Assembly (NCBI GenBank): GCA_022482815.1
Contig: JAKVOM010000001.1
Location: 2,500,946-2,564,945 of the forward strand
Origin: Acidaminococcus sp.
GTDB taxonomy: Bacteria; Bacillota; Negativicutes; Acidaminococcales; Acidaminococcaceae
DNA: 64,000 nt
Reading direction: 5' to 3'
Shown in pieces: positions 27,444-31,771 of the stretch. Every line of letters begins with the position of its first letter. The stretch's first letter is position 1. The notes beneath the pieces were generated by a model. It did not search any database and was not told the origin of the DNA. It was given only the letters and a program-made list of their open reading frames with translations. A program made the position numbers and the translations under genes.

Positions 27444-30400
27444 TCAGAACAATTCAATCTGATCAGTAGCCGGGAGATCTCCGAGAATGCCGAGATCTGC
27501 CAGTTCTTCCACAGCGGAATTACTGATTTTGGCTCTCGTGCGCAGGTCTTCACGGGAAATGAAAGGACCCGCTTTACGCGCTTCGACAATGCCTTCCGCA
27601 GCCACCCCGCCGATACCGCCGATAGAACCCAACGGCGGCAGCAGTCCTTTTTCAGTCACAAGGAATTTGTGAGCATCGGATTTATACAGATCCACATCTT
27701 CGAATTCAAATCCGCGCGCCAGCATTTCCACGGCAAGTTCCATATAAGTTGCCGTATCCTTGTCATTGACGGACGCTTTCGTGCCCTGCACATAGACGTT
27801 CTTGATGAACTGCCGCATGTAGTTGATGCCTTTATGCACCTCAGTGTAATCAAAGTGCGGTGCCCGGATGGTAAAATACGCCGAATAGAATTCCTTCGGG
27901 TGATGTACCTTACAGTATGCAATGCGATAGGCTGAAAGGACGTATGCCACGGCATGCGCCTTCGGGAACAAATACTGCAGTGTCTGGCATGCCTTGATAT
28001 AGAACTCAGGGATGTTGGCTTTCTTGAATGCTTCCAGTTGTTCGGCTTTGAACCCTTTTTTGTGAGCCTTGCCTTTACGGCTCCACTCCATGATACCGAA
28101 TGCCATGCTCGGTTCCATGCCCTTATTGATCAGCCAGTTCATGATATCGTCACGTGTCGAGATTGTATCTTCCGTCGGCGTACCGTTACGAATCAAATCC
28201 TGTGCATTGTTCAGCCATACATCTGTACCATGAGAGTAACCGGAAATACGCAGTAAGTCAGAAAAGTTCTTCGGTTTAACGTCGGAAATCATCTGACGTA
28301 CAAAGTGGGTGCCGCATTCAGGAACCCCATACGTCGCGACGTTCGTGCCGATATCTTCCGGTTCCACTCCGATGGACTTCGTACTGAGGAACAGTTCCAT
28401 CGTATCTTTATCACCGATAGGAATACTCTTGCAGTAGCCATCCCCCAGCATATTATCCAGCATCTTAATGACCGTCGGATCATCGTGGCCGAGAATATCA
28501 AGCTTAACGATACGTTCATCGATAGAATGGAAATCGTAGTGCGTCGTAATCGTTCCTACCGTCGGATCGTCGGCCGGATAGGAGACCGGCGTGATGTAGT
28601 GCACATCGAGGTTACGCGGAATAACGACGATACCGCCCGGGTGCTGGCCCGTTGTCCGCTTGACTCCTGCCAGTTTCGGGATAAGGCTCTCAATAAAAGC
28701 CATACGCTTTATCTCACCGCGGTTTTCATAGTACTTCTTGATATAACCGTATGCCGTTTTCTCCTTAATGGTACCCAGGGTACCGGCACGGAACACGTTA
28801 TCACGGCCAAAAAGTTCTTCCGTGTACTTATGAGCACGAGGCTGATATTCACCGGAGAAGTTCAGGTCGATATCAGGCACTTTATCACCATGAAATCCCA
28901 GGAATACGGCAAACGGGATATTATGTCCGTCGCGGATCATCGGCGTGCCGCATTCCGGACAATTCTTTTCGGGCAGGTCAAAACCGGATCCGACAGAACC
29001 ATCCGTAAAGAATTCCGTATGGAAACACTTTGGGCAGCGGTAATGAGGTGCCAGCGGATTGACTTCCGTGATATTGAGCATCGTTGCTACAAAAGAGGAA
29101 CCGACACTACCACGGGAACCTACCATGTAACCATCGTCGTTAGACTTCTTCACGAGCAGATGAGCAATATAGTACAGCACGGAGAAACCGTTGCCGATGA
29201 TGGAAGACAGTTCTGCTTTCAGCCGGTCTTCCACAATTTTCGGCAGCTTCGGCCCATACCATTCGTGGGCCCGGGCGTAGGACATAGATTCTACTTTCTG
29301 CTCAGCACCGGGGATGTACGGGGAATACAGCTGATCACGATCCGGAACCGGTTTGAAATTCTCAATCTGGTCGCTGATTTTATTGGTATTCGTCACGACC
29401 ACTTCGTAAGCCCGCTCTTTGCCCAGATAGGAGAATTCCTCGAGCATTTCTTCGGTCGTCCGCAGAAAGAGCGGCGGCTGCTCTTCATCGGGATAGCCCA
29501 TACCTGCCTGCAGAATCTTACGGGCGAGACCATCTTCCGGATTGAGGAAATGCACGTCGCAGGTAGCCACGGTCAGTTTACCCAGCTCGTCCCCCAGCGA
29601 CAGAATCGTCTTATTGATATTCTGCAAATCTTCAAAGCTCTTGATTTCAGGATGGGTCTCATCCTTCAGCAAGTACTGGTTGTTGCGCAAAGGCTGAATT
29701 TCCAGGTAGTCGTAATAAGAAGCAATCTGCAGCAGCTCCTCATGGGAAGCCCCGGCCAGAATAGCACGGAAAATTTCTCCGGCTGCACAGGCAGAACCGA
29801 CAATAATACCATCGCGGTACTGGTCTATCAGCCCCTTGGTCATGCGCGGCCGTTTCGGTTTTCCGCCAAAATACTGCAGATGTGACAAAGATACAAGCCG
29901 GTACAAATTGCGCAGGCCGGCAATATTCTTGGCCAGCAGGATAATGTGATAATTTTTCTTATCGTCAATGCTGTGGGTCAGATACCCTTCAACGCCATAG
30001 ATAAGTTTGATATCCTTACCCTTCTTCGCCATTTCTTTGGCTTCGTCATAACAGAACGGGAAAGCCTGAACGACACCGTGATCCGTAATGGCAAGCGCCT
30101 TGTGGCCCCAGTTGGCTGCCGTATCAACGAGTTCTTTCATCGGCGTCAGACCGTCCATCTTACTCATCTTCGTATGGCAGTGCAGTTCGACACGCTTATG
30201 TTCGGCGTTGTCCATCCGCTTCTCTGTCTTTTCGAGCATGATGCCCTTGACATTGGACATAACGAGTTCAGAGTTAGCGTACTTGTCCACGGCTACATTG
30301 CCCTGGATCAGGATTTTAGACCCGACAGGCAGCTTGTTCTGAAGGTCTTCACTTGCCTTTTTATTCTTGACAAGGTCATTGCCCTCCCGGTCGCCGAAGC

Positions 30401-31061
30401 GAATCTTAACGAGCAGCCCGTTTGTCTCATCAGCGAGATAGATGGACAAAATTACAGCATTCGTGCGCAGCTCACGGGTGTCATACTTGACGATGGTGCC
30501 TTCCACCACAACCCCGTTTTCTTCTTCCACGACTTCATCCATAGGCCGTGGTTTCTTCGTGATTTTGCGCCCATAAATGACGCCGTTTCCTTTCGGTCCT
30601 GCCATTTCGCCGCGCAGTGCCCGAAGTGCCTGCTGGTAGGCTTCGCTCTGGAACACACTGTTTTCCGTAACCTCACTGCTGTCACTGTCGTCGTCACTGC
30701 ACTCTTCTTCGCAGGCTTCCGGTGCATCATCGTCAGGCAGCGGGACGTCCGGATCCGGCAGCGGAGCGGCATCCATATAAGGCGGATAATCCGTCTCTTC
30801 ATGTTCATTGACAAAGGAAACGCGGGTAACGGAACAAGCAGCGGCAAGTTTATTTCCCACCGCTGCCAGATTTTGTTCTTCCAAGGGGTTCGTGACCATG
30901 TCATAGGCAACTTTCCACGTATTGTTCCCGCAGTCAATTTCCACGTAATCAAGAACCAGCCGGTTTAAACACGACTGCTGCTCCGGAGACAAATCAATGG
31001 TCTTCATAAAGGATAAGAAGTGATTCCTTTCAGGAATCAACCGATAACATGTTTCCTTCAC
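27444..31061 (-). CDS. polC: DNA polymerase III alpha subunit, PolC type, lacking the exonuclease domain
   Basis: This is the 1205-residue replicative polymerase. Order: N-terminal domain with an acidic stretch (about 96-130), OB fold (about 185-275), PHP domain (VELHCHTKMSKMDG near 291, LAITDHGV near 323), zinc finger CPKC...CPEC, palm with PDIDLNFSGEYQP and KLDILGHDDPT, and the C-terminal IFPKAHAVAYVL-like fingers/tandem HhH region. In B. subtilis PolC (about 1437 residues) a DEDD proofreading exonuclease is inserted in the PHP domain. Here YGVEGYLTHSIDDKKNYHII (about 355-374) runs straight across that point and no DxETTG motif occurs anywhere. Proofreading must come from another protein, if present. 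It ends the pyrH-to-polC cluster. Confidence 0.95.
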   Translation of the reverse strand: MKETCYRLIPERNHFLSFMKTIDLSPEQQSCLNRLVLDYVEIDCGNNTWKVAYDMVTNPLEEQNLAAVGNKLAAACSVTRVSFVNEHEETDYPPYMDAAPLPDPDVPLPDDDAPEACEEECSDDDSDSSEVTENSVFQSEAYQQALRALRGEMAGPKGNGVIYGRKITKKPRPMDEVVEEENGVVVEGTIVKYDTRELRTNAVILSIYLADETNGLLVKIRFGDREGNDLVKNKKASEDLQNKLPVGSKILIQGNVAVDKYANSELVMSNVKGIMLEKTEKRMDNAEHKRVELHCHTKMSKMDGLTPMKELVDTAANWGHKALAITDHGVVQAFPFCYDEAKEMAKKGKDIKLIYGVEGYLTHSIDDKKNYHIILLAKNIAGLRNLYRLVSLSHLQYFGGKPKRPRMTKGLIDQYRDGIIVGSACAAGEIFRAILAGASHEELLQIASYYDYLEIQPLRNNQYLLKDETHPEIKSFEDLQNINKTILSLGDELGKLTVATCDVHFLNPEDGLARKILQAGMGYPDEEQPPLFLRTTEEMLEEFSYLGKERAYEVVVTNTNKISDQIENFKPVPDRDQLYSPYIPGAEQKVESMSYARAHEWYGPKLPKIVEDRLKAELSSIIGNGFSVLYYIAHLLVKKSNDDGYMVGSRGSVGSSFVATMLNITEVNPLAPHYRCPKCFHTEFFTDGSVGSGFDLPEKNCPECGTPMIRDGHNIPFAVFLGFHGDKVPDIDLNFSGEYQPRAHKYTEELFGRDNVFRAGTLGTIKEKTAYGYIKKYYENRGEIKRMAFIESLIPKLAGVKRTTGQHPGGIVVIPRNLDVHYITPVSYPADDPTVGTITTHYDFHSIDERIVKLDILGHDDPTVIKMLDNMLGDGYCKSIPIGDKDTMELFLSTKSIGVEPEDIGTNVATYGVPECGTHFVRQMISDVKPKNFSDLLRISGYSHGTDVWLNNAQDLIRNGTPTEDTISTRDDIMNWLINKGMEPSMAFGIMEWSRKGKAHKKGFKAEQLEAFKKANIPEFYIKACQTLQYLFPKAHAVAYVLSAYRIAYCKVHHPKEFYSAYFTIRAPHFDYTEVHKGINYMRQFIKNVYVQGTKASVNDKDTATYMELAVEMLARGFEFEDVDLYKSDAHKFLVTEKGLLPPLGSIGGIGGVAAEGIVEARKAGPFISREDLRTRAKISNSAVEELADLGILGDLPATDQIELF

Positions 31062-31073
31062 GTCTTTCTCCCT

Positions 31074-31751
31074 TTATTCTTCTAAAATTTCAATCCGCTC
31101 CACCGATTTCTGTTTCTTGATACCTTCCAGAATTTGGTGGGCATTTTCAAATTTACTGATTTTGAGGCTTACCGTGATAGCAATATTTGAAGCTTCCGGG
31201 TGGTTTGTAATATTGAGCACACGTACCTTTACATTCATGCGCCTCAGGTAGTCAAGCACATCCACCATGCTGTCCGGCGAATTTGCCATCAGCATGCGCA
31301 CTTTCCACTTGACATTCCTGCCGGGGGGCAGCACTTTCTTTTCAAGTCCGCGTACCGCCTCGAGCGTTACAAAGGTCACAATGGTGGTTACCGTACCAAG
31401 CACGTACATGCCGCACCCTACAGCGAGGCCGATAGCTGATACAATCCACAGGCTGGCTGCCGTTGTCAATCCTTTGACAGTCATTCCTTCGTGCAAAATC
31501 GTTCCTGCACCGAGAAAGCCGATGCCGCTGACCACCTGGGAAGCAATGCGGGAGGGATCACGCGACTGAGTGACGCCGTCCGTACCATAAATGGAGACAA
31601 TCATGAGCAATGCGGAACCTGCCGCCACCAGAACGTGAGTCCGCAGCCCCGCCGGCCGATCACCGGCACTGCGCTCCAAGCCGATAATACCGCCCAAAAA
31701 GACTGCCAGCAGGATACGCAGGATCAGATGGCCAATCAGGATTGGCTCCAT
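31074..31751 (-). CDS. MgtC/SapB-family membrane protein
   Basis: This 225-residue protein has an MgtC/SapB membrane domain (about five hydrophobic segments) and a cytoplasmic ACT-like tail. The family signature is clear in AVFLGGIIGLERSAGDRPAG, LRTHVLVAAGSALLM and GIGFLGAGTILHEG. The tail MANSPDSMVDVLDYLRRMNV carries the regulatory domain. MgtC proteins influence magnesium homeostasis and, in some bacteria, the F-ATPase; the role here is unknown. The start at 31751 follows GAGGAGG by seven bases. It sits between proS and polC with short gaps and is probably part of that transcript. Confidence 0.9.
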   Translation of the reverse strand: MEPILIGHLILRILLAVFLGGIIGLERSAGDRPAGLRTHVLVAAGSALLMIVSIYGTDGVTQSRDPSRIASQVVSGIGFLGAGTILHEGMTVKGLTTAASLWIVSAIGLAVGCGMYVLGTVTTIVTFVTLEAVRGLEKKVLPPGRNVKWKVRMLMANSPDSMVDVLDYLRRMNVKVRVLNITNHPEASNIAITVSLKISKFENAHQILEGIKKQKSVERIEILEE

Positions 31752-31771
31752 TGTATTGCCTCCTCTCAAGA

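Follow-up and report, generated by a model that had tools for sequence, protein, structure and literature searches.

A PolC without its exonuclease domain in Acidaminococcus, and the PHP domain as its probable proofreader

The DNA analysed here (hereafter the window) is a 64,000-nucleotide stretch of the genome of an Acidaminococcus sp. (assembly GCA_022482815.1, contig JAKVOM010000001.1). Its polC gene encodes a PolC-type DNA polymerase III alpha subunit without the DEDDh 3'-5' exonuclease that other PolCs carry inside the PHP domain. The observation is correct and concerns a known variant, which is normal in its class; the question of what proofreads in such organisms remains a useful one. 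We consider proofreading by the PHP domain of the exonuclease-less PolC to be the best explanation and a probable one, because all 88 aligned PolCs of this form retain the PHP metal ligands and because 27 genomes whose PolC lacks the exonuclease yielded no DEDDh protein in two profile searches. The exonuclease-less PolC was published in 2013 for Clostridia and Negativicutes (Timinskas et al., PMC3919608).

Domain layout and metal site of the PolC

The polC frame begins with GTG, is preceded by AGGGAG on our reading of the sequence, and encodes 1205 residues. The product passes both NCBIfam equivalogs for PolC (1374.5 bits against a cut-off of 873, and 1268.1 against 1043.45) and is 88% identical to the PolC of an uncultured Acidaminococcus and 78-79% identical to those of A. 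intestini, A. fermentans and A. massiliensis. Pfam returned a single PHP match at residues 292-448, along with polymerase, finger and HHH domains. No exonuclease family, PF00929 included, was matched up to E = 1, and the DxETTG motif has no occurrence in the 1205 residues. By phmmer, the structure 3f2b aligns in one piece (PolC residues 172-1205), and the longer PolC chain 9qpc aligns in two (163-361 and 369-1205), with chain residues 429-637 skipped. An earlier, sequence-only reading had described a continuous PHP domain without an exonuclease, and a clean loss rather than a decayed gene. Both descriptions hold: the junction that it quoted begins at residue 355, the motif is absent and the length is 1205 residues, against about 1437 for Bacillus subtilis PolC, while the gene is intact, its frame open and the PolC cut-offs passed. 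The strand, which that reading left unstated, is minus. An assembly deletion or a decayed gene is ruled out by the intact frame together with the same architecture in 5 other Acidaminococcus records and 225 genomes of the class. The features of the gene, in window positions, are as follows (AF2, AlphaFold2; pLDDT, predicted local distance difference test score).

27444..31061, minus strand: polC, exonuclease-less PolC-type DNA polymerase III alpha subunit (open reading frame, NCBIfam equivalogs, AF2 model)
30822..31061, minus strand: N-terminal domain, residues 1-80 (AF2 blocks of pLDDT 76-93)
Following the N-terminal domain, minus strand: mostly disordered linker, about residues 89-158 (AF2 pLDDT 26-45)
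30234..30566, minus strand: OB domain, about residues 166-276 (3f2b alignment from 172; VIA-align matches to OB folds at about model residues 161-276)
29382..30188, minus strand: continuous PHP domain, about residues 292-560 (Pfam 292-448; PHP-fold matches at model residues 285-560)
29946..29990, minus strand: PHP loop E358-H372, with 13 residues between the two ligands; site of the DEDDh exonuclease in exonuclease-containing PolCs (insert lengths in 120 PolCs)
28950..29036, minus strand: putative zinc site of four cysteines, C676, C679, C701 and C704 (invariant columns in alignment A2 of 50 exonuclease-less PolCs; codons checked)
28857..28877, minus strand: palm catalytic motif PDIDLNF, residues 729-735 (identical in 120 of 120 aligned PolCs)
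27447..27461, minus strand: C-terminal clamp-binding motif QIELF, residues 1201-1205 (a Qxx[LIMF][FWLY] tail in 118 of 120 PolCs)

By Pfam alone the OB domain is weak (E 0.11). The AF2 model covers residues 6-1205, was built from 50 alignment rows and is numbered so that model residue n is protein residue n+5; its mean pLDDT is 88.1 and its predicted TM-score (pTM) 0.75. Among the Foldseek matches listed, PolC structures are closest, 3f2b (Geobacillus kaustophilus PolC without the exonuclease) having a TM-score of 0.95 by target. VIA-align against PolC structures gave Z scores of 45 to 54 over 900-1003 residues at 48-51% identity, and the model also fits the alpha subunits of Escherichia coli, Thermus and Mycobacterium tuberculosis. 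The likeness to exonuclease-containing PolCs (9qpc at full length, the G. kaustophilus enzyme as 3f2b) thus extends over the rest of the enzyme, and the difference lies between the two loop ligands, where those PolCs have 209-218 residues and this one has 13. Since 3f2b is a construct from which the N-terminal domain and the exonuclease had been removed (PMC3656037), the natural PolC described here resembles, around the PHP loop, a hand-made crystallographic form. An exonuclease fold hidden elsewhere in the protein was considered and rejected: besides the Pfam result, the matches that the structure searches list for the model of 1200 residues comprise PolC and DnaE chains, with PHP and OB folds over single domains, and no lone DnaQ-type chain is among them, although the whole model was used as query and for the N-terminal 80 residues, not searched alone, absence of such a fold is unproven. 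The alpha-epsilon chimeras 4gx8 and 4gx9 are among the listed matches, aligned over the PHP part.

The ligand set HHDHEHCDH has been used as the criterion for an 'active' PHP domain (PMC12926913). All nine ligands are kept in the PolC of the window (H294, H296, D303, H328, E358, H372, C425, D502 and H504; codons checked), and the set is also complete in the DnaE of the same genome. We aligned 120 PolCs, namely our own, 7 named ones and 112 others, of which 88 are exonuclease-less (38 from Negativicutes) and 32 exonuclease-containing; the set is intact in 88/88 of the former and 28/32 of the latter. The four broken sets come from two lineages (L108-L110 of family f50, and L008). A natural D to N change in the last DH pair of L108-L110 is read, by motif order and not by structure, as the position of D226N, which abolishes the exonuclease activity of M. 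tuberculosis DnaE1 (PMC5636811). The gap equivalent to E358-H372 measures 5 to 32 residues in the exonuclease-less PolCs (L088 and L102 aside) and 209-218 in the 32 others, and the DEDD exonuclease of G. kaustophilus PolC is reported to be inserted into the PHP loop (PMC5636811).

The precedent for catalysis by such a site is M. tuberculosis DnaE1, whose PHP domain is a Zn-dependent proofreading nuclease (PMC5636811). That enzyme shares with our PolC the nine-ligand set HHDHEH[C/H]DH and has no DEDDh domain in cis; it differs in being a DnaE, with 23% identity over the aligned part, and the PHP activity of our PolC is a prediction. Sporomusa belongs to the Negativicutes. For PolC1 of Sporomusa ovata, PHP proofreading was suggested after a change in the PHP domain arose during adaptation (PMC4632017).

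Distribution and history of the exonuclease-less form

The survey of Negativicutes covered 250 genomes of at least 90% completeness, with PolC residues 285-680 as the query. A first search gave at least 150 PolC rows from 147 genomes (counted by hand), every one a single-piece match. When 80 of the remaining 103 genomes were searched again, 78 had PolC rows, none with room for a 200-residue insert. PolC was thus present in 225 of the 227 genomes checked row by row, G153 and G255 having only DnaE-like rows and 23 of the 250 lying outside this examination; the PolC exonuclease was found in 0 of the 225. A few matches are irregular: in G006, G011, G016 and G024 they fall in two pieces 25-26 codons apart, in G012 and G237 only the part after the loop is among the rows (the whole frames encode 1219 and 1180 residues), and in G230, G210, G020 and G037 the PolC is interrupted where a contig stops or the reading frame shifts. 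The survey therefore extends the observation to the class, for which the exonuclease-less PolC is the normal form and not a peculiarity of the Acidaminococcus genome. The rarity implied by the sequence-only reading was mistaken, since the state is class-wide in our sample and had been in print since 2013.

Outside the class, 116 other Bacillota genomes were drawn so as to spread over families. The loop was crossed in one piece in 51 PolCs (in G337 over two contigs) and interrupted by an insert in 32; 3 PolCs were fragments (G308, G344 and G382, excluded from the count below) and 28 genomes had no PolC row. Two further PolCs, in G331 and G363, have only a low-complexity insert in the loop, of 84 and 39 residues, with no exonuclease by Pfam. 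In this draw, exonuclease-less enzymes therefore make up 53 of 85 scorable PolCs; G343, G334 and G337 (exonuclease-less) and G348 and G378 (exonuclease-containing) are included here and absent from the motif count. Exonuclease-less PolCs have been put at 6% of PolCs (PMC3919608), and we think that the gap between that figure and the present counts is explained by genome sampling.

In our trees, the 38 rows for PolCs of Negativicutes group together, with a support of 100 by the Shimodaira-Hasegawa-like approximate likelihood ratio test. On the PolC core tree, which leaves out the insert columns, the presence or absence of the exonuclease changes 8 times over 120 rows, 3 changes being forced by the starred branches; under a mixture model, in a tree that omits 42 of the 120 rows, it changes 8 times over 78 rows, with 4 forced. 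A single origin of either state was considered and rejected on the core tree, and placing the exonuclease-containing rows of the 78-row set in a single clade is rejected by the approximately unbiased test (p-AU 6e-89, from a quick tree and a comparison of two trees). The inserted exonucleases themselves come close to a single group (3 changes, 1 forced) and occupy one insertion site, for which reason a single gain followed by repeated losses is, on trees without an inferred root, the favoured and probable history. Transfer of the exonuclease between PolCs may also have occurred: core and exonuclease distances correlate at 0.59 overall (0 of 2000 permutations as high) but at no more than 0.20 for deep pairs.

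Several single cases were noted along the way. The Pro/Ala/Gly-rich low-complexity insert of L088 (G331; 84 residues) or L102 (G363; 39 residues) stands in place of the exonuclease, and the other two fetched members of f48, the family of G363, contain the exonuclease (L087 and L092), so that L102 looks like a recent independent loss. Second exonuclease-less PolC rows, some in shorter frames, occur in several genomes of family f13 (G227:C1:167772, G213:C5:6552, G117:C16:28120, G203:C69:98274 and G236:C27:2026). In a 1.4-Mb relative without a detectable DEDDh exonuclease, PolC lies in pieces over several frames (L224, G020:C62), as a decaying gene or through assembly errors. On visual inspection, a long DnaE frame in family f38, considered as a fusion, is an ordinary DnaE preceded by a stretch free of stop codons.

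Exonucleases and mismatch repair elsewhere in the genomes

The genome of the window is a single contig of 3,057,042 bases. A search of it for a second PolC found none (it has one PolC and one DnaE), and a search for a separate exonuclease found one free DEDDh protein, which both PF00929 and a 31-row DEDDh profile identify:

G000:C1:2907153-2907770, outside the window: free DEDDh exonuclease of 206 residues, the only PF00929 protein of the genome

Its residues D39, E41, D126, H179 and D184 are invariant in alignment A3, it scores 127.7 bits with RNase_T, and DinG, PolC exonuclease and DnaQ folds head its list of structural matches. The N-terminal tail (residues 1-19) mostly has a pLDDT below 50. 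Compared with E. coli epsilon (DnaQ), the protein shares the DEDDh residues, the fold and perhaps a clamp motif; it differs in falling short of the specific models (with dnaQ_proteo it scores 86.3 bits, the cut-off being 222.7, and with PRK05711 80.8, the cut-off being 196), and binding to a polymerase is putative. It does clear TIGR00573, a broad model of the dnaq subfamily (99.6 against 71.5).

Every one of the 9 Acidaminococcus genomes examined encodes a free DEDDh exonuclease, which belongs to one or the other of two types. The type of the window's genome, found in 4, begins with MEPYSxSLF (4/4) followed by a variable linker, and its four loci share neighbours, by eye a DNA ligase and a CstA-like transporter; in G036 the match crosses a TGA near its end. 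The other type, in 5 genomes, ends in QLSLW (5/5), is 33-35% identical to our protein and has different neighbours in the four of five loci inspected. One genome, G008, has two further DEDDh proteins. Both tails resemble the clamp motif QxxLF, QLSLW more so: SxSLF is without the Q, and QLSLW ends in W instead of F. By sequence, the Acidaminococcus protein could be a clamp-tethered helper proofreader, and these tailed exonucleases are a new lead. Tentatively, and at rather low probability, we put forward a joint reading in which proofreading shifts from module to module within the phylum, in which PolC repeatedly discarded its cis exonuclease and relied on PHP, and in which two Acidaminococcus DEDDh types gained clamp-binding tails, at opposite ends and different genomic sites, as interchangeable tethered proofreaders.

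Similar C-terminal motifs occur on other exonucleases: QMSFF (L170, L172), QLDLFG (L208, from a genome without a PolC row), QSMLF (L175) and CMPLF (L153-L155). L170 and L172, of family f24, are free exonucleases of DFETAN type. As a general compensation for the missing domain, terminal clamp motifs were considered and found no support. Among the exonucleases fetched from outside Acidaminococcus, the strict motif occurs in 2 of 40 from genomes with an exonuclease-less PolC against 0 of 16 from those with an exonuclease-containing one, and QxxLF or QxxMF in 1 of 40 against 0 of 16.

Across the samples, 236 of the 250 Negativicutes and 92 of 119 genomes of the phylum draw have a DEDDh protein by PF00929; the search also matched in 10 of 14 control genomes. 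It gave no protein in 15 of the 53 draw genomes with exonuclease-less PolC, the absence in G363, G364, G367 and G372 being inferred by subtraction. The 31-row DEDDh profile (E <= 0.001) was then run over these 15, the 14 Negativicutes without a match and our own genome, and it recovered two more cases, G077 with a full domain and G323 with one that is split. There remain 27 genomes with neither a PolC exonuclease nor a DEDDh protein by PF00929 and then the 31-row profile (13 among the 250 Negativicutes and 14 among the 53 others), among them the single-contig genomes G099, G283, G287 and G360. Of 28 genomes examined with a MutL profile, 25, our own among them, exceed the curated cut-off; at E <= 0.001 the count is 27 of 28, a lax level at which 14 of 14 control genomes match too.

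Within the window, polC lies in a run of minus-strand genes that by Pfam encode a CTP transferase, DXP reductoisomerase, an M50 protease, GcpE, a class II tRNA synthetase with an editing domain and MgtC, followed after polC by RimP_N, NusA, an L7Ae-family protein and IF-2. We take this to be the standard cdsA-dxr-rseP-ispG-proS-polC-rimP-nusA-infB cluster, of which mgtC is not known to be a member. The MgtC-family gene (31074-31769, minus strand) is directly upstream of polC, with 12 bases between them. Because the PHP nuclease of M. tuberculosis DnaE1 is inhibited in vitro by millimolar Mg (PMC5636811), co-transcription of mgtC and polC might merit thought.

Weighing the explanations and their meaning

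The enzyme is an ordinary chromosomal Acidaminococcus PolC of the exonuclease-less form, its PHP loop short where others carry the DEDDh exonuclease. Mispaired primer ends would most likely be removed by a Zn-type 3'-5' nuclease of the PHP domain, as in M. tuberculosis DnaE1. DnaE, with its intact PHP site, would share replication, MutL-dependent mismatch repair would act behind, and in Acidaminococcus the free DEDDh exonuclease may serve as a second, clamp-tethered proofreader. The sequence-only reading had concluded that replication fidelity must depend on a separate exonuclease or on mismatch repair. Its two helpers are indeed present and the exonuclease may contribute, but the 'must' is unsupported, because the PHP domain that remains is one that itself proofreads in M. 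tuberculosis DnaE1; its ligands are kept, and a separate exonuclease seems not to be required, given the 27 genomes that show none.

Several points weigh against PHP proofreading. Most Negativicutes (the 236 of 250) encode one or more DEDDh proteins, and in such genomes PHP would not have to be the sole proofreader. The motif is also kept in 28 of 32 exonuclease-containing PolCs and all the broken sets belong to just two lineages, so that ligand conservation is not specific to the exonuclease-less enzymes. Absence from draft genomes is weak evidence, and PF00929 missed the full domain in G077 that the second profile found; among the 27 genomes, G133 and G139 are marked as 7-8% contaminated and G020 has its PolC in pieces.

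It is possible, though we would not bet on it, that proofreading in Acidaminococcus is done mainly in trans by the clamp-bound free exonuclease, much as epsilon serves alpha in E. coli. The protein is the only PF00929 protein found in the genome, with active-site residues and a fold like those of DnaQ, the PolC exonuclease and DinG; all 9 Acidaminococcus genomes encode a single protein belonging to either of the two tailed types, the N-tail of our own is mostly of low pLDDT, and a strict clamp motif in a 12-residue C-terminal tail has a chance of about 0.2% by composition. However, the N-terminal SxSLF is a weak clamp match and QLSLW ends in W, terminal motifs outside Acidaminococcus are not significantly commoner with exonuclease-less PolC, and 22 of 61 genomes of the order (some incomplete) have no match to the free exonuclease. 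Cutting of the exonuclease domain out of PolC, with survival as a free gene, may have happened in family f72: in G310 and G347, whose PolCs (loci L072, L051) are exonuclease-less, the free exonucleases L177 and L178 score 222-227 bits with a PolC-exonuclease profile on which 77 of 80 free DEDDh proteins reach no more than 187, and they fall among PolC exonucleases in a quick tree of 208 columns. The Acidaminococcus protein, in contrast, scores 173 bits and sits on a separate branch of that tree, so a liberated domain does not explain the window's genome and is the least credible of the explanations for it.

A secondary role for PolC, in which DnaE copies the chromosome, the exonuclease-less PolC serves special situations and its own proofreading matters little, seems to us unlikely. 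It has been raised for Clostridia and Negativicutes, where the co-occurring DnaE1 is said to have all the properties of a sole genome replicator (PMC3919608). Our genome fits in having one DnaE and one PolC; the DnaE has the intact PHP motif expected of DnaE1, and it may be a DnaE1 and not a DnaE3. Against a minor role, polC lies in a conserved-looking housekeeping cluster (the one named above), PolC occurs in 225 of 227 class genomes, and the aligned exonuclease-less PolCs all share the same palm motif and PHP ligands, with almost as little variation in the clamp motif. Fidelity through mismatch repair alone, with no proofreading, is very improbable. MutL is over its cut-off in most genomes examined, yet this says little because mismatch repair is general in proofreading bacteria too, and the genome has two intact PHP ligand sets (PolC and DnaE) as well as a DEDDh protein.

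PHP proofreading by PolC thus remains our preferred explanation, for an enzyme already described. The exonuclease-less PolC of the 2013 report has the same OB, PHP, Pol3 and HhH domains without the exonuclease insertion, comes from the same class and has one DnaE alongside; we saw no difference from it at the protein level (PMC3919608). In the open literature, judged mostly from titles and the beginnings of abstracts, we recognised no description of the class-wide state or of the tailed exonucleases. When genomes are drawn from across the families, exonuclease-less PolCs are at least as common as those with the domain, and PHP proofreading by a PolC is now directly testable. As PolC is an antibiotic target (PMC12592400), information on the lineages without the exonuclease may be relevant to nucleotide-analogue inhibitors.

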